From Tenggerimyces flavus (GTDB lineage Bacteria; Actinomycetota; Actinomycetes; Propionibacteriales; Actinopolymorphaceae): a stretch of DNA of 64,000 nucleotides. The first letter of the stretch is position 1; each line of letters starts with the position of its first letter. The DNA lies in the NCBI RefSeq assembly GCF_016907715.1, contig NZ_JAFBCM010000001.1, positions 5,518,001 through 5,582,000 on the forward strand, read 5' to 3'. The notes beneath the pieces are model-generated. The model was given only the letters and a program-made list of their open reading frames with translations, did no database searches and was not told the origin of the DNA. Shown piece by piece: positions 41,431 to 57,633 of this stretch. A program made the translations under genes and the position numbers.

Positions 41431-41847
41431 GCGAAGCTCTTCTGGGTCTGGTGCTGTCTTGGTGCGGTGTTTCTGTGAGAACTCTCCGTGGGTTTGGTGC
41501 TCTCGGGGGCTGTGGCGGCGGTCGATGGTGGTGGCCGGTCCGGGGCGCGTCAAGGGCGCCTCCCAGGGGGCGCTTCGCGCAGACGGAGAGAGGCGTCGCT
41601 TCGCGACCGCGGAGCGGCCCTTGACTCGCCCCGGCCCGGCCACCTGTTTTCACGCGCCGCCCCCGGCCCCCGGAACAGGTGTCCCGGGACAGGCCTGCTT
41701 AGGCCCAGGTCTGCTGCCGTGCTCGCGTTGCTTGTGGGGCCCCCGGGCTTCTTGTGGTGGCGATGAAGCCGGGCCGTTCCGTCCCCGCTGTTTTGAATGA
41801 AGGGCACCTTCATTCAATAGGTTCGAATGAAGGTGCCCTTCATGCAA
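41431..41847. repeat. Dispersed structured element, copy 1
   Basis: It aligns along its length with 57187-57619. The core is a 27-base stem (41530-41556 with 41618-41644, 25 pairs) around 61 bases that can form three inner stems: CGCCTC/GAGGCG (41557-41562 with 41590-41595), TCGC-TTC-GCGA (41596-41606) and CCGC-GGA-GCGG (41607-41617). The element ends in hairpin A2. Strand of action is unknown. It may be an RNA gene or a DNA-level structure; no conserved reading frame is seen. Confidence 0.75.
41793..41847. repeat. ATAGGTT-loop hairpin, copy A2
   Basis: The arms 41793-41816 and 41824-41847 pair with two mismatches around ATAGGTT. The sequence is closest to copy A3 at 57565 (GAATGAAGG units rather than GGATGAAGG). 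It closes the right end of the dispersed element. Confidence 0.88.
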
Positions 41848-41877
41848 AGGCGCCCTCATCCCCAGGCGCCCCCGCGG

Positions 41878-41951
41878 TGATCATGAACGTGATCATGAAG
41901 CCGAACCGGTCGTATACGACGGGTCTGGCTTCATGATCACGTTCATGATCA
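41878..41951. repeat. Three-palindrome hairpin, copy B2
   Basis: The arms 41878-41901 and 41928-41951 are identical in sequence to those of copy B1 and perfectly complementary. The loop again holds GTCGTATACGAC (41909-41920), with only the flanking loop bases differing. It ends 35 bases from the stop of the hydrolase gene on the minus strand, so it could act as its terminator. Confidence 0.9.
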
Positions 41952-41986
41952 CGGCCACTCCTCGGATGAGGGGTCGGGCCAGCCGG

Positions 41987-43375
41987 TCAGCAGGTCGTGG
42001 TGGGGAGCTCGCGGGTGAGCAGGTAGGCGATCGTGGCCTGGGTCGCGCACTCGCTGTTCAGGTGCCAGGCCGAGTGGCCGGCTTCTGACCAGCGGAGCAG
42101 GGTGCTCTCCGGCAGCTGGCGCCGGGTGCGTTCGGCCCAGCGGCGGGGGGTGGCGACGTCGTGGGCGCCCGACAGCAGGAGCGCTGGTGGGAGGTCGAGG
42201 TGCGGCCACCGGTGCGGGCGCCAGGCGGCGGCGACGGGCCAGCCGGCGCAGCCTGAGGCAATGTCCCAGAACTCCGAGTACCCCCGCAGCGCCGGCCCCG
42301 CGCGCTGGACCCGGCGGGCCAGACCAGGCAGCTGGGCGGTGAACGCGCGGGTGTCGAAGTCCTGGCACACGATCGTCCGGTACATCGCGCTCCCGAGCGG
42401 ATCCGCACCCAGCCCGACCAGGCCGGAGCCGTCCAACGCGAGGGCCGCCCGCAGCGCCGTGGCCAGCGCGGGATAGAGCAACGGGCTCTGCAGGTGCGCG
42501 TTCACACCAGCCGAGACCTGGTACGCAGTCACCGGCCGGTCACCGGCGAGCAGCTCGCCCCGGTCGGCCGACGCCAGCACCGAGTGCAGCGCAGGAAGAA
42601 CGTCCACTCCGCACGAGGAGGAAGCACACCAGGACGCGAAGTGCTCGACCCCGTCCTGAACGGCAGCCGCGTCGTCGGCGACGAGCCGGCTCACCGGCAG
42701 CGACCGGTCCACGATCGCGTCCAGCGCCAGCGCGCGGAGCCGATGCGGGAAGAGCTCGGCGTACGCACGGCCGAGCATCGTTCCGTACGACACCCCGAGG
42801 AAGCTGAGCTGCCGCTCCCCCAGCGCCGCCCGCACCGCGTCGAGGTCCCGCGCGACGCTCGCCGTGTCCAGCTGCTCAGCGTGGTCGCAGGATCGAGCGA
42901 AGGCGACGTTCGAACGCACCAATGCCCGCACGCCAGCGGCAGAGGACGGGAACCGGTCCACCGACGGGTCGTCAGCCGGCACCGCGCAGGAGACCGGTGT
43001 ACTGCCCCCGACGCCGCGCGGGTCCACGCCGACGACATCGAAGCGAGCGAGCACCTCGGGACCGAAGTACGCCCGCGCGTACTGCGGCGCCATCAGATAG
43101 CCGGCCGCGCCGGTCCCCGGCCCGCCGGGGTTGAACATCAGCACACCGACGCGCCGCTCCGGAGAAGTCGCCCGCAGCCGTGACACCCGCAGCGCGACGC
43201 TGCCCGTTCCCGTCGACCAATCGGCGGGAACGGTCAGAGTCGCGCACTCGACGGGATGCCCCGCCGGCGCGCCCTCACACGGCGACCAGGAGACTGCCCC
43301 AGCCTCCGCGACCCCCGCCCCGAACAGGCCGCTGACCAGCACGACCGCGACCAAAACCGCCCCAAATCTGCGCAT
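41987..43375 (-). CDS. Secreted alpha/beta hydrolase, tripeptidyl-aminopeptidase-like (S33)
   Basis: 462 aa from ATG 43375, where a signal peptide begins (MRRFGAVLVAVVLVSGLFGA, cleaved after AEA). The hydrolase triad is visible: Ser in GVSYGTM, Asp in LSGAHDVATP and His in SEAGHSAWH, with the oxyanion loop FNPGGPGTGAAGYL. The C-terminal part matches the TAP-like extension with paired Cys residues (CQDFDTR, SGCAGW), as in Streptomyces SlpD/tripeptidyl aminopeptidases. It likely trims peptides outside the cell. It is placed between murD and ftsW, unusual for a dcw cluster, and lies 81 bases after murD on the same strand. Confidence 0.85.
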   Translation of the reverse strand: MRRFGAVLVAVVLVSGLFGAGVAEAGAVSWSPCEGAPAGHPVECATLTVPADWSTGTGSVALRVSRLRATSPERRVGVLMFNPGGPGTGAAGYLMAPQYARAYFGPEVLARFDVVGVDPRGVGGSTPVSCAVPADDPSVDRFPSSAAGVRALVRSNVAFARSCDHAEQLDTASVARDLDAVRAALGERQLSFLGVSYGTMLGRAYAELFPHRLRALALDAIVDRSLPVSRLVADDAAAVQDGVEHFASWCASSSCGVDVLPALHSVLASADRGELLAGDRPVTAYQVSAGVNAHLQSPLLYPALATALRAALALDGSGLVGLGADPLGSAMYRTIVCQDFDTRAFTAQLPGLARRVQRAGPALRGYSEFWDIASGCAGWPVAAAWRPHRWPHLDLPPALLLSGAHDVATPRRWAERTRRQLPESTLLRWSEAGHSAWHLNSECATQATIAYLLTRELPTTTC

Positions 43376-43456
43376 GACCGCAAACGATGGCAGAGCGGGA
43401 GGAACGCACACCAGAGAGCCGCGCGGATCTCCGGGAACGACCCGGGAAGACCCCGG

Positions 43457-44905
43457 TCAGCCGAGCCGGTGCACGGCGGCGGCGAACGCGTCGCCGCGGG
43501 CGCCGTAGCTGGGGAACTGGTCCTTGGACGCGCACCCTGGCGCCAGTAGCACGGTGTCTCCCGAGCGTGCCAACCGTCCAGCGGCGAGGACGACGTGGTC
43601 CATCACGCCGCTCTCCGGCGTGCCGACGTCGATCACCGGCACCGAAGGAGCCAACCGCGCCAACGCATCAGCGATCACGCCACGGTCGACGCCGAGCAGC
43701 ACAACCCCGCGCAACCGATCCTTGGCCACACGCACGAGCTCGTCGAACGACTGCCCCTTCGCCTGTCCCCCGGCGATCCACACCACGTTCGAGAAGGCCA
43801 GCAGCGAAGCCTGGGCCGCGTGCGTGTTCGTCGCCTTCGAGTCGTCGATGTACGTGACACCCTCCGACACCGCGACCTGCTCGATCCGGTGCTTGTCGAG
43901 CTGGAACCCGCGCAGCCCGTCCCGCACCGCGACCGTCGGCACCCCGAAGGAACGGGCCAGAGCCGCCGCGGCCAAAGCGTTCGCGATGTTGTGCGGCGCC
44001 AGCGACGGCAGGTCGGACAGCGTCGCGAGCTCGGCCGCCGCCGTCTGCCGTTCCTCGATGAACGCGCGGTCAGCGAGAACGTCGTCCACGATCCCGAGCA
44101 TGCTCACTCCCGGCACGCCCACAGTGATGCCGATCGCCCGGCACCCCTCCACGACGTCGGCGTCCCGGACCAGCTGCTCGGTCACCGGGTCTTCGACGTT
44201 GTAGACGCAGGCGACCTCGCAGCCGTCGTAGATCTTGCCCTTCGTACGCGTGTACTCGTCCATCGTCGGATGCCACTCGAGGTGGTCCGGCGCCACGTTC
44301 AGCACCGCCGCCGATCGCAGGTGTAGCCCAGGACTCCACCACAGTTGGAAGTTCGACAGTTCGACCGCGAGCACGTCGTACGGCGTCGGGTCCATGACCG
44401 CGTCGACGATCGGGTCGCCGATGTTCCCGACGGCCGCGGTACGCAGGCCCGCCGCGCGCAGGATCGAGGTCAGCATCTGCACGGTCGTGGTCTTGCCGTT
44501 CGTCCCCGTGAGACCGATCCAGGGCGCCGGCCGCTCCGGCGAACGCAGCCGCCAGGCGAGGTCGACCTCACCGAGGATCGGCAACGACCGAGAACGGGCG
44601 GCCACCGCGAGTCGGTGCTGCTGCGGCAGCCCGGGCGAGACCACGAGCACGTTGGTCTTGTCGGGCAGCGACTCGGTCGCGCCCTCGCCGAGCCGGATGT
44701 CCGCGCCGAGGGTCTCCAGGATCGTGGCGCGTTCGCGGGCCGCGTCGTCGGGCTCGCCGTCGGACAGCACGGTGACGTGCGCGCCAACGTGCAGCAGCCC
44801 GGCCGCCGCCGAGTAGCCGGAGACGCCGAAGCCGGCGACCACCGCGGAGACCTCGTCCCACGGCGACCGCTGATGCGCGCCGTCCAGCCAGGACAAGGCC
44901 GTCAT
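43457..44905 (-). CDS. murD: UDP-N-acetylmuramoylalanine--D-glutamate ligase MurD
   Basis: 482 aa from ATG 44905, overlapping the mraY TGA as ATGA. Motifs are VVAGFGVSGYSAAAGLLHVGA (N-domain), the ATP loop GLTGTNGKTTTVQML, LNVAPDHLEWH and TYIDDSKATNTHAAQASL (C-domain, carbamyl-Lys side). It adds D-Glu to UDP-MurNAc-Ala. The C-terminal APGCASKDQFPSYGARGDAF is typical. An upstream in-frame Met at 45004 lies in mraY and is rejected. Confidence 0.95.
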   Translation of the reverse strand: MTALSWLDGAHQRSPWDEVSAVVAGFGVSGYSAAAGLLHVGAHVTVLSDGEPDDAARERATILETLGADIRLGEGATESLPDKTNVLVVSPGLPQQHRLAVAARSRSLPILGEVDLAWRLRSPERPAPWIGLTGTNGKTTTVQMLTSILRAAGLRTAAVGNIGDPIVDAVMDPTPYDVLAVELSNFQLWWSPGLHLRSAAVLNVAPDHLEWHPTMDEYTRTKGKIYDGCEVACVYNVEDPVTEQLVRDADVVEGCRAIGITVGVPGVSMLGIVDDVLADRAFIEERQTAAAELATLSDLPSLAPHNIANALAAAALARSFGVPTVAVRDGLRGFQLDKHRIEQVAVSEGVTYIDDSKATNTHAAQASLLAFSNVVWIAGGQAKGQSFDELVRVAKDRLRGVVLLGVDRGVIADALARLAPSVPVIDVGTPESGVMDHVVLAAGRLARSGDTVLLAPGCASKDQFPSYGARGDAFAAAVHRLG

Positions 44906-45990
44906 ATCCCCGCCACCCACTCCGCGTAGAAGATGCCGATGCCGCCGGCCACGAGGATGCCGCAGATGATCCAGAACCGGATCGTGATCGTGACCTCGTT
45001 CCACCCCTTCAGCTCGAAGTGGTGGTGGATCGGAGTCATCCGGAACAGCCGTTTAGGCGTGCCCGTTCGCCATCGGGTGAACTTGAAGAAGCTCGTCTGC
45101 AGGATCACCGACGCGGTCTCGATGAGGAACAGCCCGCCGATGAGGATGAGCAGCAGCTCGGTCCGCGTCATGATCGCGAAGCCCGCGACCGCGCCGCCGA
45201 GTGCGAGCGAGCCGGTGTCGCCCATGTAGATCTTCGCCGGCGACGCGTTCCACCATAAGAAGCCGAAACAGGCGCCGGCCAGGGCGAACGCGAACACGGC
45301 GAGGTCGTACGGGTCGCGGATCTCGTAGCACTTCGGGCCGGGCGAACGGACGCAGTCCTGGTTGAACTGCCAGACGAGGATCAGCGTGTACGCGGCGAAC
45401 ACCATCACGCACGCGCCGGTCGCGAGGCCGTCCAGGCCGTCGGTGAGGTTGACGCCGTTCGACGAGGCGGAGATGAGCAGCAGCACCCACAGCACGAACG
45501 GGACCGACGCGGCCCACGCGAGCGGAAGCCAGTCGATGTCGCGGATGAACGAGATCGCGGGCGAGGCCGGCGTGATCTCCCGTTCGTCCGGGAACTGCAG
45601 CGAGAGGATCGCGAACACGATCGCGATCAGCGTCTGGCCGGCGAGCTTGGCCTTCGCCCGTAAACCGAGGCTGCGTTGCCGCGAAACTTTCAGGAAGTCG
45701 TCGAGAAATCCGACCAGCCCGAGTCCGAGCGTGAGCAGGATGACGAGCAACGCCGAGGGTGACGGCCAGTTCCAGGTGAAGATGTGCGCCGCGATGTAGC
45801 CGACGACCGCGGCGCCGATGATGACCGTGCCGCCCATCGTCGGCGTGCCGCGCTTGGTGTGGTGCGAGGTCGGTCCGTCGTCGCGGATGATCTGCCCGTA
45901 CCCGGCCCGCGCGAGGATCCGGACGGCGACCGGCGTCACCAGCAAGGCCAGCAACAACGCCAGCCCGCCGGCGAGGAGGATCGCGATCAC
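44902..45990 (-). CDS. mraY: Phospho-MurNAc-pentapeptide transferase MraY
   Basis: 362 aa with about ten helices. The catalytic motifs are RDDGPTSHHTKRGTPTMGG (near 36-54), the acidic GFLDDFLKV, NLTDGLDGLATG, and the C-terminal MTPIHHHFELKGW His box. It makes lipid I on undecaprenyl phosphate. The GTG start overlaps the murF stop by 4 bases. Confidence 0.97.
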   Translation of the reverse strand: MIAILLAGGLALLLALLVTPVAVRILARAGYGQIIRDDGPTSHHTKRGTPTMGGTVIIGAAVVGYIAAHIFTWNWPSPSALLVILLTLGLGLVGFLDDFLKVSRQRSLGLRAKAKLAGQTLIAIVFAILSLQFPDEREITPASPAISFIRDIDWLPLAWAASVPFVLWVLLLISASSNGVNLTDGLDGLATGACVMVFAAYTLILVWQFNQDCVRSPGPKCYEIRDPYDLAVFAFALAGACFGFLWWNASPAKIYMGDTGSLALGGAVAGFAIMTRTELLLILIGGLFLIETASVILQTSFFKFTRWRTGTPKRLFRMTPIHHHFELKGWNEVTITIRFWIICGILVAGGIGIFYAEWVAGI

Positions 45991-47393
45991 GCCGGGCCCT
46001 CCACCGGGGGAACGTCGGCCACGAGCCGGTCGCCGAGGTAGCGCAGCCCCGCGTCCCGGGACGACTTCACCAGGACGACGTCACCGGGTCGCAGCTCGTT
46101 GCGCAACAGCTCGTAAGCGCTGTCGGCGTCCGGCACGAAGACCGACTCCTTCCCATCCGCGAGCGCCGCGTCATAGATCGCGCGTGCACCATCCCCCACG
46201 ACGACGAGGCGCGAGACGCCTTGTCGTACGGCCAGTCTGCCCACAGCGGCGTGCTCATCGGTGGATGCCGCGCCGAGTTCGAGCATCTCGCCGAGCACGG
46301 CCCACGTACGCCGCTCCTTGGCGAGCGTAGGCAACGTCTCCAACGCGGCCCGCATCGAGTCCGGGTTGGCGTTGTAACCGTCGTTGACGATTCGCACGCC
46401 GTCGGCGCGGTCGCTGACCGCCATCCGCCACCTGGCTTGGGGTTTCGCGGCGGTGAGGCTGGCCGCGACAGCGTCGACGTCCAGGCCGACCGCGCGAGCG
46501 GACGCCGCGGCAGCGAGCGCGTTCGTGACGTAGTGTGCGCCGACGTAGCCGAGCTGCACGTCGGCCTTGCCTTCGGGCGTGACGAGAACGAAGCCCGCGC
46601 AGCCGCGGTCGTCGAGCTCGACGCCCTCGGCGCGCACGTCGGCGTCGGCGGCCAGGCCGAACGACGCGACCGCCGCCTTCGTCCGCGGCGCCATCGCCTC
46701 GACCAGCGGGTCGTCGGCGTTGAGGACCGCGGTCCCGTCGGCGTCGAGCGCCTCGATCAGCTCGCCCTTGGCCTGCGCGATGCCGGCCTTGCTGCCGAAG
46801 AACCCGACGTGGCCCATGCCGACGTTCAGCACGACCGAGACGTGCGGCCGGATCAGGCTGGTGAGGTACGCCAGGTTGCCGATCTTGCGCGCGCCCATCT
46901 CTAATACGAGATACCGAGTCTCGGCATCGGCGCGCAGCGCGGTGATCGGCGCGCCGAGCTCGTTGTTCAGCGACGCGGCCGGCGCGATCGTGGGTCCGGC
47001 GTCGCCGAACACCTTCGCCATCAGGTCTTTCGTCGTGGTCTTGCCCTGCGATCCGGTGACCGCGATCACGGTCAGGTCGGGGAGACGTCCGACGACGTGG
47101 TGCGCGAGCACGCCCAGCGCGACGACCGAGGCGTCGACCTCGTTGCCCGGCGCGGGTGGCCCGACCACGCACGGGATGCCCGCGAGCGGGCGCGAGGAGA
47201 GGACGGCGGTGGCACCGTTCGCCATGGCGTCGGCGGCGAAGTCGTGGCCAGCCAGGTCCGCGAGGAACATGCCACCGGGTTCGACGACGCGCGAGTCGGC
47301 GGAGAACGGGCGGGTGATCCGCGTACTCGGGTCCGCCTCGGACAGCTCCCCGCCGACCACGCGCGCGATCTCGCCAAGGTCCATCCGGATCAC
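45987..47393 (-). CDS. murF: UDP-MurNAc-tripeptide--D-Ala-D-Ala ligase MurF
   Basis: 468 aa. GTG 47393 overlaps the murE TGA (GTGA); ATG 47384 three codons later is an alternative. Signature pieces are the ATP loop AVTGSQGKTTTKDLM, LEMGARKIGNLAYL, LNVGMGHVGFFGSKAGIAQAKGEL and NDGYNANPDSMRAAL. It adds the D-Ala-D-Ala dipeptide, the last cytoplasmic step. Normal length. Confidence 0.95.
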   Translation of the reverse strand: MIRMDLGEIARVVGGELSEADPSTRITRPFSADSRVVEPGGMFLADLAGHDFAADAMANGATAVLSSRPLAGIPCVVGPPAPGNEVDASVVALGVLAHHVVGRLPDLTVIAVTGSQGKTTTKDLMAKVFGDAGPTIAPAASLNNELGAPITALRADAETRYLVLEMGARKIGNLAYLTSLIRPHVSVVLNVGMGHVGFFGSKAGIAQAKGELIEALDADGTAVLNADDPLVEAMAPRTKAAVASFGLAADADVRAEGVELDDRGCAGFVLVTPEGKADVQLGYVGAHYVTNALAAAASARAVGLDVDAVAASLTAAKPQARWRMAVSDRADGVRIVNDGYNANPDSMRAALETLPTLAKERRTWAVLGEMLELGAASTDEHAAVGRLAVRQGVSRLVVVGDGARAIYDAALADGKESVFVPDADSAYELLRNELRPGDVVLVKSSRDAGLRYLGDRLVADVPPVEGPA

Positions 47394-48898
47394 GACCGTT
47401 CCTCCATCCGACGCAGCTGCTCGAGGACGACCTGCCGGTCGTCGAACGGGTGCACGATGCCGGCGATCTCCTGGCCGAGCTCGTGCCCCTTGCCCAGGAC
47501 GACGACGGTGTCGCCCTGGCGTGCGGTGTCCAGTGCCCAGCCGATGGCCTCGCGCCGGCCGCCGATCTCGACGACCTCCGCTCGGCCCTTCGCGCCGGCG
47601 ATCGCGGCGGCCCGGATCGCGGCGGGGTCTTCCGAACGCGGGTTGTCGTCGGTGATCACCGCGACGTCCGCCCCGTTCGCCGCTGCGGCGCCCATCAGCG
47701 GACGCTTGCTCTGGTCGCGGTCGCCGCCGCAGCCGACGACCGCGATCACGCGGCCCTCGGTGAGCGGTCGTACGGTGGCGAGGACACGTTCGATCGCGTC
47801 CGGCGTGTGGGCATAGTCGACGATCGCGGTGAACGCCTGGCCGGCCTGGATCCGTTCCATCCGGCCGGGCACGGTCGCAGTCGCGAGGCCGCGGACAATC
47901 GCCGCGCCGTCGATCCCGACCGCGTGCAGCATCGCGACCGCGACGAGCCCGTTGGCGACGTTGAACTCGCCCGGGATGCCGAGGCTGACGCGCAGGCGGG
48001 TGTCGTCCGGGCCGTGCACGTCGAACGCGACGCCGGTCGGCTCGAGCGCGACGTCGCTCGCGCGCCAGTTGGCGGCAGGGTCGCCCGAGGGCGAGACGGT
48101 GACGATCTCGATCTCTGCCTCGGCGGCGAGGAGGGCGCCGGCCGCGTCGTCGACGTTCACGACACCGAGCTGCGCGCGATCCTTGCCGAACAGAGACGCC
48201 TTCGCGGCGTAGTACGACTCCATGTCGCCGTGGATCTCGAGGTGGTCCTGGGACAGGTTGGTGAAGCCGGCGACGTCGAAGCGGACGCCGTCGACGCGGC
48301 CGAGCGTGAGCGCGTGGCTCGAGACCTCCATGGTCGCGGCGGTGACGCCCCGCTCGCGCATGACGGCGAACAGCGCGTGCAGGTCGGGCGCCTCGGGGGT
48401 CGTACGAGCGCTCACCTCGACGTCGTCGCCGATCCTCGTCTCGATCGTGCCGATCAGCCCGGTGCCGTTGCCGGCCGCGCGCAACGCGGCGTCGACCAGG
48501 TACGAGGTGGTGGTCTTGCCGTTCGTCCCGGTGATGCCGAGCAGCGTGAGCGCGTCGGCCGGGTCGCCGTACACCCAGGCGGAGATCGTTCCGAGGAGCT
48601 GGCGCGGGTCGCCGACGACGAGCGTGGGCAGGCCGGCGCGTACGCAGTCCTCCTGGCCAGCCTCGTCGGTGAGGGCGGCGACGGCGCCGTTTGCGCGGGC
48701 CTTGTCGGCGAACTGCGCACCGTGCGCGAACTCGCCGGGGCGGGCGACGTAGAGGTCGCCGGGCTGGGCGCGGCGGGAGTCCTGGGCGATGCCGGTGAGC
48801 TCGGGATCTTCCGCCGGTGCGGCGACACCGAGGAACGCCGCGGCCTCGCTGAGGCGGCGCGGCTGGTGCGTCGTCGGTCGGTGGGCGGGGGCGGCCAA
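47390..48898 (-). CDS. murE: UDP-MurNAc-dipeptide--diaminopimelate ligase MurE
   Basis: 502 aa from TTG 48898. The ATP loop is GITGTNGKTTTSYLVDAAL, followed by TMEVSSHALTLGRVDGV, FTNLSQDHLEIHGDMESY and VDYAHTPDAIERVL. The amino-acid selector motif DDNPRSED is present, which in characterised enzymes marks diaminopimelate rather than lysine; LL- versus meso-form cannot be told. The start has no strong ribosome site, and the 357-base region upstream separates it from the efflux cassette, so murE probably has its own promoter because the ftsI group no longer precedes it directly. Confidence 0.94.
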   Translation of the reverse strand: MAAPAHRPTTHQPRRLSEAAAFLGVAAPAEDPELTGIAQDSRRAQPGDLYVARPGEFAHGAQFADKARANGAVAALTDEAGQEDCVRAGLPTLVVGDPRQLLGTISAWVYGDPADALTLLGITGTNGKTTTSYLVDAALRAAGNGTGLIGTIETRIGDDVEVSARTTPEAPDLHALFAVMRERGVTAATMEVSSHALTLGRVDGVRFDVAGFTNLSQDHLEIHGDMESYYAAKASLFGKDRAQLGVVNVDDAAGALLAAEAEIEIVTVSPSGDPAANWRASDVALEPTGVAFDVHGPDDTRLRVSLGIPGEFNVANGLVAVAMLHAVGIDGAAIVRGLATATVPGRMERIQAGQAFTAIVDYAHTPDAIERVLATVRPLTEGRVIAVVGCGGDRDQSKRPLMGAAAANGADVAVITDDNPRSEDPAAIRAAAIAGAKGRAEVVEIGGRREAIGWALDTARQGDTVVVLGKGHELGQEIAGIVHPFDDRQVVLEQLRRMEERS

Positions 48899-49143
48899 CG
48901 TCCTCGGGTGTCCTCGTTGTCTAGGCGCCAGGGCAACGGACGATCAGTCGGAAGGCGGGACCCCCCGGAACCAGGTCTTCCGGTTCGTGAGGGTATCGCG
49001 CCGCCTTCTTCTGGGCGTGGTGGTGGTCCTGCGTTGCCCTGGGCTCAGGACAGCGCGGCGTGCAGCTCATGCGGGCGGATGGGCGCCGATGCCGCTTTAC
49101 CTGGCGAGTGGGTGCCTTACGCGGGGTGTAACCCACGTAGAGC

Positions 49144-49175: not shown

Positions 49176-49206
49176 ACCACCCGGGAGCGACCACCGCTGA
49201 GAGCTT

Positions 49207-49232: not shown

Positions 49233-49255
49233 TACTCCTTGGGGAGACCGCCGTG

Positions 49256-49579: not shown

Positions 49580-50121
49580 GGCCCAGTGCCGAGGAACGCC
49601 GCCAGCGCATCATCCAGGCCGCGCACGAGCTGATCCCGGCGGTCGGCGTGCAGGGCCTCACGCACCGGCTGGTCGCCGAACGGGCGCGCGTACCGCTCGG
49701 GTCCACCACCTACTACTTCGCCACGCTCGCCGACCTCGTCGACGCCGCGCTGGCCGCGGCCACGGACGTCACGACCGAGTGCCTGCGGGACTGGTCCGAG
49801 CGGCTCGAGGCCAGTACAGACGTCCCCGCCACACTGGCGGAGCTCGTCGGCGAGTGGGTGGAGGACGGCGAGCAGCTGGCGACCTGGAACGAGCTTTACA
49901 CCGCGGCCGGACACCGCCCCGAGCTCCGCGCGCTGGCGCGGGTGTGGAGCGACGGCCTGGCCGACCTGCTCACCGCGTACGCGACGGACCAGGCAGCCGC
50001 CCGGGACGCCGCCGCGTTCGTCGACGGCGTGGTCATGCACGCGTTGATCCGGGACGAACCGGTCGATTCCGCCCGTCTCGCCCGCGTGATCGCCGTCCTG
50101 CTCGGCCGCTACCCGGCCTGA
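49576..50121 (+). CDS. TetR-family transcriptional repressor
   Basis: 181 aa from TTG 49576, overlapping the SMR stop. The N-terminal HTH is typical: RRQRIIQAAHELIPAVGVQGLTHRLVAERARVPLGSTTYYFATLADLVDAAL. The ligand domain follows, with the WVEDGEQLATWNELYTAAGHRPEL helix pair seen in actinobacterial SMR-linked TetR proteins. It likely represses its own operon through the palindrome at 49207. It overlaps the MFS gene at its end. Confidence 0.9.
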   Translation: MRPSAEERRQRIIQAAHELIPAVGVQGLTHRLVAERARVPLGSTTYYFATLADLVDAALAAATDVTTECLRDWSERLEASTDVPATLAELVGEWVEDGEQLATWNELYTAAGHRPELRALARVWSDGLADLLTAYATDQAAARDAAAFVDGVVMHALIRDEPVDSARLARVIAVLLGRYPA

Positions 50122-51236
50122 TCGCCGCCACGCTGTTGTTGGGTATCGGGGACTCGGTCTCCGGCACATTCCTGATGCTGTACGGCACCGACGCCGTTGG
50201 TCTGTCGCCGGCGGCCGCGGGAACGCTCCTCTCGGCCGTCTCGCTCGGCGGCATGATCGCGAGCGTCGTCCGCGGGCGGTGGTACGACCGGGCGCCGAGC
50301 CGGTTGCCGGCCATCGTCTCGGTCGCCGGCTCCGTCGTGGGCTTCGCCCTGCTGACCCTCGCGACGTCCTCGCTCGTCCTGCTCGCCCTCGCCGCCGTGT
50401 TCCTCGGCGCGAGCGGCGCCACGTTCCCGCAGCTGTTCACGCTGGCGCGCGGCCATCTCGACGTGGCAGGCCAGGCCGAACGAGGCACGCCAGCGCTGCG
50501 ATCGGTCTGGTCCGCTGCCTGGGCGATCGGGCCGCTGATCGGCGGCGCGCTGCTCGCCTGGTCCGGGTTCACCTGGCTGTTCGTCACCGCCGCCGCCACG
50601 TTCGCGCTGGTCGCCGTCGCGGTGTGGCTGCTCGGTCCCCCACCTGTCGGGTCCGCGAAGAAGATGGAAGGCCGGCAGCGCCTCCCGCGGCGCATGGTGC
50701 TCGCGGTCATCGGCTTCGGCCTGTTCCACACGGCGATGTTCGTCGGATCGGTGGTGCTGCCGCTGTTCGTCACGCGGGAGGTCGACGGCTCGTACGGGAA
50801 CGTCGGCCTCGCGTTCAGCGTGTGCGCCGCGGTCGAGGTGCTCGCCGCGCTCGCGCTGACGTTCCTCCCGGCGCGCTGGTCGCGCCGACGCCTGATCGTG
50901 CTCGGCATGGTGCTGTTCACCGCGCACTTCGTGATCATCGCGCTCGCGCCCAACGTGCTCGTCGTGCTGCTCGCCCAGGCCGTCCGCGGCGGCGCGATCT
51001 CGCTGGTGCTCGCGCTCGGGATCACGTACTTCCAGGATCTGCTGCCAGACCAGCCCGGCCGGGCGACCGCGCTGCTCGCCAACAGCGGAGCCGCCGGCTC
51101 GTTGGCGGCCGGAATCGTCGGCGGCTCGCTCGCCCAGGCGATCGGCTACCGGCCGGCCCATCTGGTCTGCGCCGCGGTGAGTGTCGTCGCGGCCGCGGTC
51201 CTGGCCCGAGGGCTCGCGAGACCGCCTGACTCCTGA
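50118..51236 (+). CDS. MFS transporter, sugar-efflux (SetA-like) type
   Basis: About 372 aa with 12 helices, beginning in GLIAATLLLGIGDSVSGTFLMLYGTDAVGLSP. Its shape (a short first loop, SLGGMIASVVRGRWYDRAP motif A) resembles sugar-efflux or drug MFS proteins. No ATG, GTG or TTG precedes the first helix in frame: the only fitting codon is CTG 50118, overlapping the TetR TGA as CTGA, while TTG 50136/50139 would cut the helix. The start is therefore uncertain and CTG is proposed. It is the last gene of the efflux operon. Substrate unknown. Confidence 0.8.
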   Translation: MIAATLLLGIGDSVSGTFLMLYGTDAVGLSPAAAGTLLSAVSLGGMIASVVRGRWYDRAPSRLPAIVSVAGSVVGFALLTLATSSLVLLALAAVFLGASGATFPQLFTLARGHLDVAGQAERGTPALRSVWSAAWAIGPLIGGALLAWSGFTWLFVTAAATFALVAVAVWLLGPPPVGSAKKMEGRQRLPRRMVLAVIGFGLFHTAMFVGSVVLPLFVTREVDGSYGNVGLAFSVCAAVEVLAALALTFLPARWSRRRLIVLGMVLFTAHFVIIALAPNVLVVLLAQAVRGGAISLVLALGITYFQDLLPDQPGRATALLANSGAAGSLAAGIVGGSLAQAIGYRPAHLVCAAVSVVAAAVLARGLARPPDS

Positions 51237-51264
51237 CCGCATTCGGCCAGCGCTCTCAACGATG

Positions 51265-51287
51265 AATACGTATAGCCTATACGTATT
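51265..51287. promoter_or_regulatory. Perfect 23-bp palindrome, probable operator of the ARH-ABC operon
   Basis: Arms AATACGTATAG and CTATACGTATT surround a single C. Each arm holds the 8-base palindrome ATACGTAT (51266-51273 and 51279-51286) with a central CG, typical of LacI-family sites. It is AT-rich in a GC-rich region and lies 29 bases before the chosen start of the first gene, where it would overlap the promoter. The LacI regulator ending this operon is the natural binder. Confidence 0.65.
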
Positions 51288-51315
51288 ACTAGATGTCGAT
51301 CACTGCGAGGTGTCG

Positions 51316-52638
51316 ATGCCGCATGATGCCAGTGTTCTCGCCGATCTGGTGCTGAACGAGATCGCGCAACGTCGCGAGAGCGGATACGAGGTCGGCGAGC
51401 TCGAGCGCCGGTTCCAGCAGCTCGACCCGGCCGCCACCGACGAGCTGGACGCGCTCCTCGACGAGCTCGACCAACTCCCCCGTTCCGACGGCTGGGCCTA
51501 CGAAGAGCCCACGCCCTGGGACGGCCTGGTCCAGACCCTGACTCCGCAGCCAGCCGACCAGCTCGACAGCGCCAACGGCGAGTACCGCGACAGGGTCCTC
51601 GGCGCGTGGCTCGGCCGCGTCGCCGGCAACATGCTCGGCAAGCCCGTCGAGAACGGCGACCACTGGACGCCGCAACACCTCAGGTCCTATCTCGAGAAGG
51701 CGGACGCCTGGCCGCTCGACGACTACGTTCCCGTTCTCGACCCGATGCCCGAGGGCTACAAGCTCCGGCACTGCTGGGTCGACACGACCCGCGGCAACGT
51801 GCGCGGGAGCTCGCGCGACGACGACGTGGACTACACGATCCTCGGCCTGCACCTGTTGGAGAAACACGGCACCGGGCTCACCTCCCAACACGTCGCCGAC
51901 AGCTGGCTGCTGCTGCTCCCGATGCACCAGACATACACCGCCGAACGGGTCGCCTACCGCAACCTCGCCACCGGCCTCCGCCCGCCGGACACCGCCGATA
52001 GGAGGAACCCGTACCGCGAGTGGATCGGCGCCCAGATCCGCGGCGACGCGTTCGGTTTCGTCCACCCGGGCGACCCGATGGCGGCCGCCAAGCTCGCGTA
52101 CGCCGACGCCGCGGTCTCCCATGTCGCGAACGGCGTCTACGGCGAGATGTGGGCAGCCGCGCTCGTCGCCGCCGCGTTCCACGGCGACACCCCACGCGCG
52201 ACTCTCGAACGGTCGCTGGAAGTCGTCCCACCCCAGTCCCGGCTCGCCGAAGCACTCCGAGACGTGCTCGACGTTCATGGTCAAGGCAAGGACTGGGACA
52301 CCGCGATCGCGCACATCGGCGAGCGGTACGGCCACTACAGCTGGGTGCACACGATCAACAACGCGGCCGTCATCGCCGCCGGACTGCTCTGGGGCGAGGG
52401 CGACTTCACCCGCACGATCGCGCTCACCGTCCTCGGTGGCCTGGACACCGACTCCAACGGCGCGACCGCCGGCTCGGTCGCCGGAATCCTCAACGGGGCA
52501 ACGAAGATCCCGCCGCACTGGACAGACCCGCTCGAGGACACCTTGCGGAGCGCGCTGTTCGGCTTCGACGGATCCCGCATCTCCGCGTTGGCGGAACGCA
52601 CCGTCAAGGTGGCGCACGACATCTCCGGGGGCAACTGA
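51316..52638 (+). CDS. ADP-ribosylglycohydrolase (DraG/ARH) family protein
   Basis: 440 aa from ATG 51316, with GCGAGG 6 bases upstream. Residues 1-85 are a helical extension rich in Asp/Glu/Leu. The ARH fold follows: GAWLGRVAGNMLGKPVE (96-112), SRDDDVDYT (166-174) in place of the usual YTDDT metal box, and the second metal box GGLDTDSNGATAG (374-386) near the normal GGDTDT. The carboxylates are mostly kept but the first Thr is Asp and the last Thr is Ser, so a magnesium hydrolase with altered specificity is likely. It leads an operon with a sugar-type ABC transporter, which points to an N- or O-glycoside substrate taken up from outside. Not shown to act on ADP-ribosyl proteins. Confidence 0.85.
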   Translation: MPHDASVLADLVLNEIAQRRESGYEVGELERRFQQLDPAATDELDALLDELDQLPRSDGWAYEEPTPWDGLVQTLTPQPADQLDSANGEYRDRVLGAWLGRVAGNMLGKPVENGDHWTPQHLRSYLEKADAWPLDDYVPVLDPMPEGYKLRHCWVDTTRGNVRGSSRDDDVDYTILGLHLLEKHGTGLTSQHVADSWLLLLPMHQTYTAERVAYRNLATGLRPPDTADRRNPYREWIGAQIRGDAFGFVHPGDPMAAAKLAYADAAVSHVANGVYGEMWAAALVAAAFHGDTPRATLERSLEVVPPQSRLAEALRDVLDVHGQGKDWDTAIAHIGERYGHYSWVHTINNAAVIAAGLLWGEGDFTRTIALTVLGGLDTDSNGATAGSVAGILNGATKIPPHWTDPLEDTLRSALFGFDGSRISALAERTVKVAHDISGGN

Positions 52639-52671
52639 ACCACATCCATGAACGTTGTCGAGGAGGCAACG

Positions 52672-54051
52672 ATGCCCACCACCTCACCCCGCGGCCTCAA
52701 CCGAAGGCGATTCCTCGCTCTCGGCGCCGGAACGGCGGCAGCCGCGGCACTCGCGGGCTGCACCCAGGGCTCCGCCACCCGCCGGACGGCCGGCGCGATC
52801 ACGTTCTGGGCGGCGTTCGACCGAGACACCGACAGGAAGTACTTCGAGCAGCACTTCGTCGCGGACTACAACGCCGACCACGACGACAAGGTGAGCTTGA
52901 CGATCAAGGACGACGAGAGCCTCGAACGTCTCCAGCAGACCGCGATCGCCTCCGGGCAGGGCCCGGACATCGTGCTCACCAGCGGACCTTCGTACGCGCT
53001 GGAGTACATCAACGCCGGCAAGCTCGCGCCCCTCGACGACTACGCCAAGGCCGGCGGCTGGGAGGAGAAGCTGCAGACCTGGGCGTACGACGCCGGCAAG
53101 GTCGAGGGCAAGCTGTACTCGATCCCGAACTCCTTCGAGACCATGGTGATGTTCACCAACAACGAGGTCATGTCGAAGTACGACTGGACCCCGCCGACCA
53201 CTCGTCAGGAGTTCGAGGACCTGTGCGCCGACGCGAAGGGGCGCGGCATCATGCCCGTGCTCGCCGGCAGCGCCGAATGGAAGCCCGCGACCGAGTGGTT
53301 CGTGTCGGTGATGTTCAACCACTACTCGGGTCCGGACGCCGTTTACTCAGCGCTCATCGGCGAAACGCCGTGGACGGACCCGGTGTTCGTCGACGCCATC
53401 ACGGCCCTGAACGGCTACTTCCAGAAGGGCTGGTTCGGCGGCGGCGTCAAGGAGTACTTCACGAACAGGTTCGACACGTTGAACACCCGGTTCGCCAAGG
53501 GTGAGATCGCGTTGGACATCACCGGCTCCTGGGCGTTCGGCGACCTGCGCAGCTTCTTCGACGGCAAGGTCGGCGCGGGACCGGACGCGTGGGACTGGTC
53601 CCCGCTGCCCGCATTCCGTGACGGCGTGCCCAAGGACCTGTACGCGCTGTCGGTCGGAGGGACCTACTCCGTCAACGCCGACTCCAAGAACCAGGACGGG
53701 GCCGCGGACTATCTGACCTGGCTGCTGTCCGACCGCAAGCGCCTTGCCGATGCGGTCGCCGAGGTCGCGTTTCAGCCGTACCCGTTGAACTTCTCCGCCG
53801 ACGACTTCCCCGCGAACACCGACGAGCGGATCAAGCGGCTCTACGTGGACATGGCCGCGTCGAAGGCGTGGGGCTACGTCACCTGGACGTGCTGGCCGCC
53901 GAAGTCCGACGTCTACATCTACCAGGAGATGGACAAGGTCATCACCGGCAAGCTCACGCCGAAGGACTACTGCGCGGGGCTGGACAAGGTCTTCAAGGAG
54001 GAGCTCGCCGCGAAGAAGGTGCCGCCGATCCCCAAGCCCGCTGGGGCGTGA
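52672..54051 (+). CDS. ABC transporter substrate-binding lipoprotein (carbohydrate type)
   Basis: 459 aa from ATG 52672 with GAGGAGG upstream. The signal is of twin-arginine type, LNRRRFLALGAG, ending in the lipobox LAGC (Cys30), so it is exported folded or with cofactor and lipid-anchored. The body matches family 1 extracellular sugar-binding proteins: ITFWAAFDRD, SGQGPDIVLTSGP, PNSFETMVMFTNNEVM and the C-terminal WTCWPPKSDVYIYQEM aromatic region. Ligand unknown. It follows the ARH gene by 33 bases and precedes the permeases directly. Confidence 0.92.
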   Translation: MPTTSPRGLNRRRFLALGAGTAAAAALAGCTQGSATRRTAGAITFWAAFDRDTDRKYFEQHFVADYNADHDDKVSLTIKDDESLERLQQTAIASGQGPDIVLTSGPSYALEYINAGKLAPLDDYAKAGGWEEKLQTWAYDAGKVEGKLYSIPNSFETMVMFTNNEVMSKYDWTPPTTRQEFEDLCADAKGRGIMPVLAGSAEWKPATEWFVSVMFNHYSGPDAVYSALIGETPWTDPVFVDAITALNGYFQKGWFGGGVKEYFTNRFDTLNTRFAKGEIALDITGSWAFGDLRSFFDGKVGAGPDAWDWSPLPAFRDGVPKDLYALSVGGTYSVNADSKNQDGAADYLTWLLSDRKRLADAVAEVAFQPYPLNFSADDFPANTDERIKRLYVDMAASKAWGYVTWTCWPPKSDVYIYQEMDKVITGKLTPKDYCAGLDKVFKEELAAKKVPPIPKPAGA

Positions 54052-54052
54052 G

Positions 54053-54997
54053 ATGGCCACCACGACCCAGACCGCGGGCACGGCCGTTCGAACGGCCCCG
54101 CCGCCGAGGCGCCGGATGACCTCGCGACGCCGGCGCGCGCTGATGGCGTGGCTGTTCATGCTGCCACTGCTGCTCGTGAACGGCGTCGTCATCGCCGGGC
54201 CAGGGCTCTCGAGCTTCTACTACTCGTTCACCTCCTGGTCCGGCGTCGGCGAGGCCAAGTGGGTGGGGCTGGACAACTACCGGCGGCTGCTCACCGACGA
54301 CGACTTCCTCGGCGCGCTGCTGAACAACCTCTGGTGGACGCTGTTCTTCCTCACCGTCCCGATGGCTATGGGACTGCTCGGCGCGTACCTGCTGTCGCGG
54401 ACCCGAAGGTTCGGGATCCTGTTCCGGATCGCGTACTTCATCCCGTACATCGTCGCGACCGTGGTGTCGTCGGCGATCTGGCAGAACATCCTGTCGCCGG
54501 ACTACGGCATCGGCGCGCAGCTGTCGAAGCTCGGCATCCACTGGCTGGACGACGTGAACTTCCTCGGCGACGGCCGGCTCGCGCTGCCGTCGGTCGCGTT
54601 CGTCAACAACTGGCAGTGGTGGGGCTTCCTGCTGGTCGTCTTCCTCGCCGCGATGCAGGGCGTGGACCCGCATCTGTACGAGGCAGCTCGCCTCGACGGG
54701 GCGAGCCCGTGGAACGAGTTCTGGCACGTCACGCTGCCGGCGATCAGACCCACGCTCGTGTTCCTGATGCTGATGACCGTGATCTGGTCGTTCCTGGTCT
54801 TCGACTACGTCTACATCCTCACCAGAGGCGGACCGGCCGGCGCCACCGAGGTGCTCGGCACGCTGCTCTACACGGCGGCGTTCGGCGAGCACGAGGCCGG
54901 CTACGGCGCCGCGGTCGGGATCGTGATGGCGCTGATCAGCTTCCTGGTCGTGTGTACGTACCTCGTGATCCGGCGCGTACGGAGGTGGGACACGTGA
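54053..54997 (+). CDS. Carbohydrate ABC permease, MalF/UgpA type
   Basis: 314 aa with six helices and a long, Arg/Thr-rich cytoplasmic N-terminus. The permease coupling loop is YEAARLDGASPWNEFWHVTLPAIRPTLVFL, the EAA motif. ATG start 1 base after the preceding stop, so coupling is expected. It pairs with the next gene to form the channel. No ATPase gene is in the operon, so a shared MsiK-like ATPase is probable, as in other actinobacterial sugar importers. Confidence 0.93.
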   Translation: MATTTQTAGTAVRTAPPPRRRMTSRRRRALMAWLFMLPLLLVNGVVIAGPGLSSFYYSFTSWSGVGEAKWVGLDNYRRLLTDDDFLGALLNNLWWTLFFLTVPMAMGLLGAYLLSRTRRFGILFRIAYFIPYIVATVVSSAIWQNILSPDYGIGAQLSKLGIHWLDDVNFLGDGRLALPSVAFVNNWQWWGFLLVVFLAAMQGVDPHLYEAARLDGASPWNEFWHVTLPAIRPTLVFLMLMTVIWSFLVFDYVYILTRGGPAGATEVLGTLLYTAAFGEHEAGYGAAVGIVMALISFLVVCTYLVIRRVRRWDT

Positions 54998-55830
54998 GGC
55001 GTCGTAGGTTCGCGCCGATCTCTGGGCTGCGCTATCTGGTGCTCAGCCTGCTCGTCGCGTTCTCGCTCGGTCCGTTGACGGTGTTCTTGTTCAGCGCGCT
55101 CAAAACCCAGGCCGAGCTCGGCGACAACCCGATGGGTCCGCCGACGAGCTGGCAGTGGGGCAACTTCCTGCAGGCCTGGACCACCGCGCGGATGGGCGTC
55201 GGGTTCGTCAACTCCGCGATCATCGTGGTGGGTACGGTCGCCGGCGTCTGCCTCATCGCTGGTTGTGCCGCGTACGCGATGGCGCGGCTCGACCTGCCCG
55301 GCGCCGGATCGGTTCTGGTCTACCTGCTCGTGGGCGGCTCGCTGCCGATCCAGCTGTTCCTCGTCCCGCTGTTCTTCCTGTGGACCAAGCTGCACATCTA
55401 CGACACGTTGCTCGGGCTGATCGTCATCTACTGGGCGATCTTCTCGCCGTTCGCGACGCTGCTGCTGCGCTCGTTCATGCTCGCGATCCCCCGCGACTAC
55501 GAGGAGGCCGCGCGGATCGACGGCGCGCGGGAGTGGACCGTGCTGGTCCGGGTCGTGCTGCCGCTGTCCTGGCCGGGCTTCCTGACGATCGCGCTGACGA
55601 CGGCGCTGGCCGCGTACAACGAGTTCCTGCTCGCGGTGACGTTCATCCAGAGCCCGGAGTATCTGCCGGTCTCGACGGGCTTCTTCTCGTTCAAGGAGGG
55701 CTTCAGCCAGAACTACCCGCTGATCGGTGCGGCCGGGTTGCTTATGCTCGCCCCCATGCTCGTGGTGTTCCTCGCGCTCCAGCGCCGCTTCGTCGACGGG
55801 ATCACCGCGTCCGGACTCGGTGGGATCTGA
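54994..55830 (+). CDS. Carbohydrate ABC permease, MalG/UgpE type
   Basis: 278 aa from GTG 54994, which overlaps the partner gene stop as GTGA. Six helices and the EAA loop YEEAARIDGAREWTVLVRVVLPLSWPG are evident, with FKEGFSQNYPLIGAAGLLMLAP near the C-terminus. It completes the importer with the MalF-type subunit. Confidence 0.93.
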   Translation: MRRRRFAPISGLRYLVLSLLVAFSLGPLTVFLFSALKTQAELGDNPMGPPTSWQWGNFLQAWTTARMGVGFVNSAIIVVGTVAGVCLIAGCAAYAMARLDLPGAGSVLVYLLVGGSLPIQLFLVPLFFLWTKLHIYDTLLGLIVIYWAIFSPFATLLLRSFMLAIPRDYEEAARIDGAREWTVLVRVVLPLSWPGFLTIALTTALAAYNEFLLAVTFIQSPEYLPVSTGFFSFKEGFSQNYPLIGAAGLLMLAPMLVVFLALQRRFVDGITASGLGGI

Positions 55831-55835
55831 GTCCT

Positions 55836-56861
55836 ATGGCTGCCGCGTCGCGCCGTCCCGGCCGCCCGACCCAGATGGACGTCGCGCGGCTCGCCGGTGT
55901 GTCGCAGGCGACGGTGTCGCAGGTGCTGAACGACAAGGCGACGATGGTGCCGGTCGAGACCCGGCAGCGGATCCTCGCGGCGGCGGAGGAGCTCGGCTAC
56001 GTACCCGACTCGACGGCCCGGGCGTTGCGGGTCCGTTCGTCGCAGACGGTGGCGTTCATCATCCCGGACATCACCAACCCGTTCTATCCGGCGGTCGAGC
56101 GCGGCGTGCAGGACGTGGCGGAGCGGTACGGGTACGACGTCATCGTCTACAACGCCGACGGCGACGAGGCGAAGGAACGCAAGGCGATCCGGTCGGTACG
56201 GTCGCGCGGTGTCGACGGCGTGATCGCGTCGTTCTTCCGCATGACCACGACCGATCTCCGGCCCCTGCTGGAACACGGAGTGCCGGTGGTCCGGTTGGAG
56301 CCGCGCGCGCGACGAGTGTCGGACCTGCCGCTGGACAACGTGTTCACCGACAACGTGGCAGCGGCTCGTACGGCCGTGGATCACCTTGTCGACAAGGGAT
56401 ATCGCCGTATCGGCATGATCTCGGGGCGGAGTGGCCCCGGCCCGGCGCGGCTGTCGGGGTTGCGGCAGTCGTTGGCCGCCCACGGGATGAAGGCGGTCGA
56501 GTCGCTGATCGTCGAGGGCGACTTCACCGAGTCGGGCGGCTACTCCGCGATGCGCCGGCTGTTGCGTTCCCGGCGCCCACCGGACGCGGTGTTCGCGGCC
56601 AACGACCTGATGGCGATGGGCGCGTTGCTTGCTCTTCGCGACGCTGGGGCGCGTGTGCCTGACGACGTGGCCGTGATGGGCTTCGACGACATCCCGGCGG
56701 CGAAGCTGGTGAGCCCGTCGCTCACGACGGTCAACCTGTTCCAGGACCGGCTGGGCCGCCAGGCGGCAGAGCTGCTCTTCGAACGCCTCCGCGGCCCTGC
56801 GCCTAGTGTGGGGCGATCGGTGGAGATCCCTTATGAGCTGGTTGTTCGGGAGACCACCTGA
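55836..56861 (+). CDS. LacI-family transcriptional regulator
   Basis: 341 aa. The N-terminal HTH and hinge read TQMDVARLAGVSQATVSQVLNDKATMVP (12-39), followed by VAFIIPDITNPFYPAVERGVQDVAERYGYDVIVYNADG and a periplasmic-binding-like core with PPDAVFAANDLMAMGALLALRDAGARVPDDVAVMGFDDIP. It should sense the imported sugar and control the operon through the palindrome at 51265. The start ATG 55836 lies 5 bases after the permease gene. It is the last gene of the cassette. Confidence 0.94.
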   Translation: MAAASRRPGRPTQMDVARLAGVSQATVSQVLNDKATMVPVETRQRILAAAEELGYVPDSTARALRVRSSQTVAFIIPDITNPFYPAVERGVQDVAERYGYDVIVYNADGDEAKERKAIRSVRSRGVDGVIASFFRMTTTDLRPLLEHGVPVVRLEPRARRVSDLPLDNVFTDNVAAARTAVDHLVDKGYRRIGMISGRSGPGPARLSGLRQSLAAHGMKAVESLIVEGDFTESGGYSAMRRLLRSRRPPDAVFAANDLMAMGALLALRDAGARVPDDVAVMGFDDIPAAKLVSPSLTTVNLFQDRLGRQAAELLFERLRGPAPSVGRSVEIPYELVVRETT

Positions 56862-56991
56862 GCCCCGGGCACGTCGCCACGGCCACCTCGCCCGCTCGCC
56901 ACCCCACCCAGCTCGCCACCCCGCCCAGCTCGCCACTCTGGCCAGCTCGCCACTCTGGCCAGCTCGCCACTCCGCCACCTCGCGACCTCGC

Positions 56992-57075
56992 CACCGGCAC
57001 CTCCTCACCGGCACCTCCTCACCGGCACCTCCTCACCGGCACCTCCTCACCGGCACCTCCTCACCGGCACCTCGC
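56992..57075. repeat. 14-bp tandem repeat array
   Basis: Five exact copies of CACCGGCACCTCCT are followed by a near copy, with looser related units (CCACCTCGCCACCGG-like) on both sides from about 56885 to 57117. There are no spacers, so it is not a CRISPR. Its variable length would make it a useful strain marker. Confidence 0.85.
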
Positions 57076-57186
57076 CATCGGCACCGGGCACCTCGCCACC
57101 GGCCACCTCGCCACCGGTCACGCTCGTGCGCACTTCCCTAGCCGAAACGGGGTTTCAGGCCCCCGGTCTGGTGAGGGAAGTCGCGA

Positions 57187-57619
57187 GCGAAGCTCTCCGG
57201 CGATGGTGCTCTCTTGGTGCGGTGTTCTCGGCGAGCTGGTCGGGGGTTGGTGCTCCCCGTGGGGCTGTTGCGGCGGTCGATTTTGGTGGCCGGTCCGGGG
57301 CGCGTCAAGGGCGCCGTTTGGGCGGCGCTTCGCGCAGATGGGCAAACGACGTCGCTTCGCGATCGCTTTGCGACCCTTGACTCGCCCCGGCCCGGCCACC
57401 AGTTTCTAACGCGCCGCCCCACCCCCGGGAACGGGTGCCCGGGCTAGGTCTGTTTGCGGTTCCGGTCTGCTGCCGTGTTGCGGTCGCTTGTTGGCCCACG
57501 GTCTGTTGTGGTTCAGATGAAGCCGGGGCTGACCGCTCCCTACGTCACTCACCCGCTCGGCCGTTTGAATGAAGGGCACCTTCATTCAATAGGTTCGAAT
57601 GAAGGTGCCCTTCATTCAA
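57187..57619. repeat. Dispersed structured element, copy 2
   Basis: It matches 41431-41847 over its whole length with many substitutions. The 27-base outer stem is 57285-57311 with 57374-57400, identical in sequence to copy 1. Inner stems are CGTTTG/CAAACG (57315-57320 with 57343-57348), TCGC-TTC-GCGA (57352-57362) and TCGC-TTT-GCGA (57363-57373). Where these differ from copy 1 the partner bases have changed as well. It ends in hairpin A3. Confidence 0.75.
57565..57619. terminator. ATAGGTT-loop hairpin, copy A3
   Basis: The arms 57565-57588 and 57596-57619 pair with one mismatch around ATAGGTT, and each arm has its own GAATGAAGG-3 bases-CCTTCATTC hairpin. It lies 15 bases after the stop of the 99-aa gene on the minus strand and downstream of lacI on the plus strand, so a bidirectional terminator role is reasonable. 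Confidence 0.8.
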
Positions 57620-57633
57620 AACGCGGCGGTGGG

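Follow-up and report, generated by a model that had tools for sequence, protein, structure and literature searches.

A dispersed cloverleaf-hairpin repeat of Tenggerimyces flavus and its relatives among Actinomycetes

Described repeats and the cloverleaf element

The repetitive extragenic palindromic (REP) sequences of the GTAG and CGTC classes are presented in PMC3733652 as palindromic, intergenic, high-copy elements of patchy occurrence that are rare between divergent genes. The unit is 20-40 bp long, with a stem of 8-9 bp, a loop of 4-5 bases and an unpaired GTAG or CGTC tag. REPs often form inverted pairs, which may fold into a single large hairpin whose spacer forms smaller ones, and the GTAG REPs accompany RAYT transposases; the words 'Actinobacteria' and 'Streptomyces' are absent from the main text of the paper (PMC3733652). 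Here we describe an element found in a stretch of 64,000 nucleotides of the actinomycete Tenggerimyces flavus (contig NZ_JAFBCM010000001.1, positions 5,518,001 to 5,582,000 of the forward strand; referred to as the window), in which two copies of a large cloverleaf-like hairpin are present. The element is best filed as REP/ERIC-like, but it is larger than the known REPs. With a probability of roughly 0.5, the two window copies are members of a REP/ERIC-like family of structured intergenic repeats that is widespread in Actinomycetes and transposed in trans.

Like REPs, the element has many intergenic copies, which in other genera are rare in divergent gaps, and it shows patchy occurrence and inverted pairs. 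The class-wide tip begins CGTC-AA...TT-GACG, as do the tag and the first two stem residues described for CGTC REPs. Unlike a REP, it forms a hairpin of ~115 bp with three sub-hairpins, AAGGG pairs across these, and the GTC of CGTC is paired; unlike the GTAG REPs, it is not accompanied by a RAYT match in its own genome.

Imperfect palindromes of the ERIC/IRU and miniature inverted-repeat transposable element (MITE) types are 100-500 bp long, structured, intergenic, non-coding and multicopy. The cloverleaf element shares all these properties, but its tip is common to many genera, and no target duplication or partner transposase was seen. At the telomeres of Streptomyces and the ends of parvoviruses, a single folded DNA strand forms several small hairpins, the loops of which are of the GNA type. 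The small hairpins of the cloverleaf element, with GNA-type loops on one DNA strand, are similar, but the element is internal and dispersed, not terminal. Repeats of the REP13E12/DUF222-HNH type are described from mycobacteria, and gene conversion is frequent in M. tuberculosis (PMC13061034, PMC10589994). DUF222-HNH genes are repeated in T. flavus as well, where most of the DUF222 loci have the hairpin upstream; a hairpin is not mentioned for REP13E12 in the available portions of these two papers.

Copies, structure and covariation in T. flavus

An earlier note, made from the letters of the window alone, had described a non-coding element in two copies, 41431..41847 and 57187..57619 (both + strand). 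The genome search and the alignment agree that both copies are real and align end to end. The number was too low. When the genome, a single contig of 8,519,422 bases, was searched with a 48-base pattern (≤3 mismatches), 81 matches were obtained, 44 forward and 37 reverse, and none with the reversed control, so 'two copies' understates the family. The arm pattern alone gave 85 and 84 arm matches. The set analysed, 82 copies, consists of the 81 pattern matches and one more divergent copy. The copies are spread evenly along the chromosome, and 81 of the 82 (the exception is L090) do not overlap a predicted gene, gene positions being those of our own simple gene caller with 40 bp of overlap tolerated at the edges.

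In both window copies the 27-base left arm GGTGGCCGGTCCGGGGCGCGTCAAGGG is the same, and so is the right arm; over the 27 positions the two arms form 9+8+8 = 25 pairs. In copy 1 this outer stem closes three small hairpins to form the cloverleaf (41530..41644, + strand), within which the conserved tip GTCAAGGGC...GCCCTTGAC occupies 41549..41625 (+ strand; pattern match, 0 in 100 shuffles). In copy 2 the cloverleaf spans 57285..57400 (+ strand). The inner stem is CGCCTC/GAGGCG in copy 1 and CGTTTG/CAAACG in copy 2, and the last hairpin is CCGC-GGA-GCGG and TCGC-TTT-GCGA, respectively; the outer stem and both replacements can be read in the sequence as the note had given them. Each copy gives a better fold than any of its 100 dinucleotide shuffles (z scores of -3.56 and -3.57).

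The structure was scored as 50 pairs on the 82-row alignment of the own-genome copies, in which 97.1% of the cells pair. Two-sided changes numbered 169, compared with 66.5 ± 5.3 in column shuffles. Pairs with a two-sided change were 9 vs 7.2 in the shuffles, and further pair types, 19 vs 19.2, did not exceed them. The outer stem is near-invariant and therefore uninformative on covariation. In helix 4, the inner stem, two-sided change was seen at 6 of 8 pairs, and pair 68-95 occurs in all four Watson-Crick types; in helix 7, C-G is replaced by U-A in 25 rows. The alleles of the two variable hairpins are found in many combinations among the copies, which indicates that the copies recombine and that a tree and its null can only be approximate. 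Under a phylogeny-preserving null of this approximate kind, a test of our own in which substitutions were re-dealt along the tree, three inner pairs covary beyond phylogeny: columns 64-99 (E 0.005), 65-98 (0.015) and 115-125 (0.01). Seven column pairs outside the structure reached E ≤ 0.02, namely six near neighbours at ragged ends and pair 85-97. RNAalifold, unaided, found 43 pairs, 4 of them two-sided, with a small covariation term (-0.86 kcal/mol).

Between genera, the outer arms do vary. Folded with their own partner, they reach -20.0 kcal/mol (group average; 62 distinct copies in 16 genus-level groups), compared with -14.1 ± 0.9 kcal/mol when partners were shuffled among groups, and 0 of 5000 shuffles were as good. 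Pairing, two-sided changes, covarying pairs and co-diverging outer arms together suggest, as the note had proposed, a selected structure and not a coding gene; that selection is at work is concluded from the covariation. Of the three outcomes that the note had named as refuting it, none was obtained.

Although program-made open reading frames (ORFs) overlap copy 1, there was no coding signal: the core lengths cover all three residues modulo 3, and even the best frame stays open in at most 60 of the 82 copies. For these reasons the element is taken as non-coding, in line with the note, and a protein-coding repeat was excluded, as no frame is kept open and indels are not in threes. At gathering score no Rfam family lies over the element in the window, in 20 Propionibacteriales loci or in 12 class-wide loci, and copy 1, when scanned permissively, had matches below gathering score only. 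A known Rfam family was thus excluded for the scanned stretches, which bears out the statement that no named family was recognised; nor was a name found in the part of the literature on structured repeats of actinomycetes that was covered. HEARO, the IscB omega-RNA, was dismissed because the one neighbour protein tested is DUF222 plus HNH and has no RuvC match at E 0.001.

By their flanks, the 82 copies fall into 54 of type A (including both window copies), 21 of type B and 7 of type C. Types A and B have ~285 bp in common. A 55-bp 3' palindrome ends the type A unit in 45 of 54 cases, 260-309 bp past the start of the core. Type B copies lie 306-315 bp 5' of an ORF (417-418 aa in 20 cases, 532 aa in one), and type C copies have several hundred bp of upstream sequence in common. 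This upstream region (L064, L076, L088, L094, L101, L124, L137) contains degenerate tandem repeats and a second large hairpin, CTCAATGTCAAGGGTCAGG...GCGCCCTTGACATTGAGG, which by eye bears the TCAAGGG/CCCTTGA motif too. At L113 and L070 a 44-bp stretch (CTGTTGCTTTGCC...GCTGGTCGGG) is present in tandem copies immediately 5' of the element.

Copy 1 is thus composed of a left arm region, the cloverleaf hairpin, a tail and the 3' palindrome. Its tail contains a hairpin, CCCGGGCTTC...GATGAAGCCGGG (41742..41773, + strand), recognised by eye in the stretch common to types A and B. The 3' palindrome (GAATGAAGGGCACCTTCATTC-spacer-GAATGAAGGTGCCCTTCAT...), to which no strand is assigned, occupies 41793..41847 in copy 1 and 57564..57620 in copy 2, where the convergent downstream gene is predicted to end 18 bp away; another copy lies upstream of copy 1 (41243..41298). 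Members of this palindrome family (ATGAAGGGCACCTTCAT...ATGAAGGTGCCCTTCAT) occur without the cloverleaf too. Copy 1 is flanked on both sides by a second palindrome pair, GATCATGAACGTGATCATGAAGC...GCTTCATGATCACGTTCATGATC (41333-41404 and 41879-41950), and short tandem repeats (CACCGGCACCTCCT and similar) are found just 5' of copy 2, at 56990-57080.

Relatives, folded strand and mobility

Covariance-model and pattern searches found the family, beyond the two copies, in the genome of T. flavus and in other actinomycete genomes. Of the 293 genomes of the order, 24 had a match to the covariance model at E ≤ 0.01, 9 candidates having been scored in each genome. The part common to the relatives is the tip, TCAAGGG-hairpins-CCCTTGA. 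The tip pattern was present in 44 of the 293 genomes, some single matches being due to chance as judged by eye, and it gave 49 matches in the own genome and 63 in a genome of the genus Kribbella (G027), with 0 for the reversed control in both. The own-genome arm pattern was found in 0 of 7 other genomes of the family, in three of which the tip is present; the subfamilies are genome-specific. With a strict tip pattern, the own genome alone was matched among 198 genomes of the phylum, a set in which the class is represented by only 16 further genomes.

When named genomes were scanned, at least 119 stretches matched, 80 of which were considered. Among the matches listed, the tip was seen in Streptomyces, Amycolatopsis, Mycobacterium, Nocardia, Isoptericola and a plasmid of Candidatus M. 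methanotrophicum, and most of the actinomycete matches have, by eye, a real tip and paired arms. The outer arms differ from genus to genus yet still pair. Inverted pairs are found repeatedly, with 0.5 to 1.4 kb between their members (e.g. L270, L296, L312 and loci of G027). In other genera, both neighbours were seen for 38 copies, only 2 of which are flanked by divergent genes, compared with 47 of 147 gaps of ≥150 bp. In the own genome, 20 of 54 type A copies are between convergent genes (96 of 528 background gene pairs). A Streptomyces copy matched 4 plasmid records and no phage record; one plasmid copy is on a linear record, ~600 bp from its end. The window copy had no match among the plasmid records. 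Among the matches listed, 13 were not from actinomycetes; long paired arms are present in four of these and three hairpins in one, so the motif may extend further or be convergent. Records with a tip match and long paired arms include the alphaproteobacterial L279, L282, L306 and L313 (Maricaulis, a Caulobacter metagenome-assembled genome and another such genome), which are perhaps CGTC REP dimers or perhaps mark a wider reach of the motif.

The loops of the small hairpins are one-sided. The 79 distinct tips yielded 143 hairpin loops, of which, on the tip strand, 91 have the form TNC and 10 the form TNNC, whereas GNA and GNNA do not occur there; C-TNC-G on the tip strand is C-GNA-G on its complement. 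GNA and GNNA are extra-stable DNA loops. Under DNA parameters the complement was the more stable strand in 46 of 57 class-wide tips and in 18 of 22 Propionibacteriales tips, and folds with three hairpins were obtained for 42 of the class-wide tips on the tip strand and 46 on the other. In copy 1 the other strand has a slight advantage in stability (-50.9 vs -48.8), and with DNA parameters the minus strand folds into the three hairpins. The strand preference supports folding of one DNA strand in the family across the class, a support that the own genome weakens. We infer that the folded species is probably single-stranded DNA, the strand with the C-GNA-G loops.

A hairpin-bearing unit of ~530 bp is repeated in Streptomyces ISL-96 and ISL-100. 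At a site 3' of a gene that, from its sequence, we take to encode malate dehydrogenase, ISL-96 has ~1.1 kb with the unit and ISL-100 lacks the unit, the stretch being 96.5% identical. Presence and absence at this one site, the dispersal, the intergenic position and the common tip are consistent with copying by transposition, which seems likelier than another route. One strand would fold into a long stem topped by the three-hairpin cloverleaf, and an enzyme supplied in trans would copy the family between intergenic sites. Outside the own genome the copies would land mostly away from divergent promoter regions, and copies within one genome would swap hairpin modules by recombination. In T. flavus, one lineage of copies may have joined the leader of a DUF222-HNH gene and multiplied with those genes.

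Several observations weigh against this reading. The unfilled site of ISL-100 retains TTTGCTTC, which is also the start of the unit, so that gain and loss are equally possible; the junction of the filled and unfilled pair is not clean, and no target-site duplication was seen. The Y1 transposase domain (PF01797) had 0 matches in the own genome and in three of four others (G000, G025, G098, G017). In T. flavus, divergent genes flank type A copies about as often as in the background (10/54 vs 101/528), and the orientation of the copies has no replication-strand bias (best p 0.12, with assumed origins at 50-kb steps), whereas IS200-like insertion into single strands would predict one. The folds, too, are not uniform. 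RNA minimum-energy folding produced the three hairpins for only 24 of the 79 tips, DNA folds of the 22 Propionibacteriales tips have them in only 6 on the tip strand and 10 on the other, and the strand preference is reversed in the own genome, where, of 71 distinct tips, 64 are more stable on the tip strand and 7 on the complement.

Two candidate movers were set aside. Mobilisation by a RAYT in the own genome was excluded by the lack of a PF01797 match there; one partial match was found in G027. In G027, identical 453-aa IS30-like transposases lie near hairpins (L223, L226, L231, L235, L237, L238), with HTH_38 and rve domains in the two scanned. As mobiliser in G027, IS30 was rejected, the genes being several hundred bp from the tip and near only six of the 16 loci fetched.

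DUF222-HNH genes and competing explanations

The own genome has 27 DUF222 loci, 23 of which have the hairpin upstream: the 21 of type B, L142 and L369. All 21 type B ORFs match DUF222, and the one protein tested has DUF222 plus HNH. L369 is a divergent DUF222 gene whose hairpin arms differ, still pair and lie at about the usual distance. The 532-aa ORF (L087) has a tail (...ENNFLKRAAAYFAKEQR) presumably derived from a transposase, an apparent insertion of an insertion sequence (IS). In L367 and L368 the leader lacks the hairpin and the gene is still open; L370 and L371 show no hairpin. The L367 leader keeps only TGGCCACC, as slippage between GGCC repeats would leave, and that of L368 keeps the left arm without its partner. 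In the protein tree L367 has a nested position and a long branch, which makes loss more probable than a site that had been empty from the outset, and the remnants together with the tree place of L367 led us to reject both leaders as empty sites. The branch of the L367 gene is the longest in its clade (0.2, median 0.033).

Elsewhere the association was not seen to recur in this form. Each of the 10 other genomes tested has DUF222 (2 to 47 matches), and no tip was found upstream of DUF222 in 20 regions sampled in five of them, none mycobacterial, which makes the leader position, as far as seen, a local trait of the own lineage. The numbers do not go together either: G027 has 8 DUF222 matches and 63 tips, G006 has 47 and 2. 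On these two grounds DUF222 was dismissed as a general partner. A DUF222-like gene was seen near a hairpin only twice elsewhere (L302; L157/L213), each time ending towards it, and 1 of 107 neighbour proteins in other genera matched the own-genome DUF222 profile (E 1.7e-9).

These data bear on three unlikely readings of different weight. If type B were an autonomous element copied by its DUF222-HNH nuclease, the 54 gene-less type A copies would be miniature derivatives. The near-constant distance in 21 copies, the two further DUF222 loci with a hairpin (one of them divergent, with differing arms), a median dN/dS of 0.13 over 18 genes and the ~285 bp common to types A and B are what one would expect; the tipless DUF222 leaders elsewhere, the unlinked numbers, the two genes that remain open after loss of the hairpin and the orientation of the two outside neighbours are not, and we regard this reading as unlikely. 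A broader claim, that the element is a new kind of mobile element working through one DNA strand with a telomere-like GNA-loop cloverleaf and a mover other than Y1, the DUF222-HNH protein of the autonomous form being the mover here, appears quite unlikely. Most improbable is a cis-regulatory leader of DUF222-HNH genes scattered through gene duplication and decay. It would explain the near-constant place in the leader and perhaps the TAGAAT box noted by eye just before the ATG, but 61 of the 82 copies have no adjoining DUF222 gene, most type A copies have a 3' palindrome of their own, and the tip occurs in Streptomyces and others, where the neighbours are almost never DUF222 proteins.

A functional RNA has better prospects, and we consider it possible, though not probable. 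The cloverleaf would be transcribed as a 3'-untranslated region or small RNA and would be bound by protein, or would protect or terminate messages. The covariation of inner pairs and outer arms is compatible with this. The same holds for gene order: in other genera, an upstream gene in the same direction lies within 200 bp in 23 of 31 copies, and in the own genome, in 21 of the 28 type A cases with a convergent next gene its predicted end is ≤39 bp from the palindrome, as with a terminator hairpin. RNA parameters, however, give no class-wide strand preference (complement more stable in 23 and tip strand in 32 of 57 tips; 11 and 10 of 22 in Propionibacteriales), and they yield the three hairpins in 23-25 of 57 tips, compared with 42-46 under DNA parameters. 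C(UNC)G is not known as a class of stable RNA loops, which we count against an RNA, as we do the patchy occurrence of the tip within the order (some of it by chance) and, with the strict pattern, in 1 of 198 phylum genomes.

The likeliest reading is that of a structured repeat transposed in trans. Its tip is kept across genera while the arms change together, so something probably reads the shape of the element. The family spans Kribbella to Mycobacterium and Streptomyces and is linked to DUF222-HNH genes in one lineage; were the DUF222-HNH protein indeed the mover, this abundant family would be given a function. With dozens of copies, natural losses and a filled and unfilled site, the family is a test set for what moves or reads such repeats.

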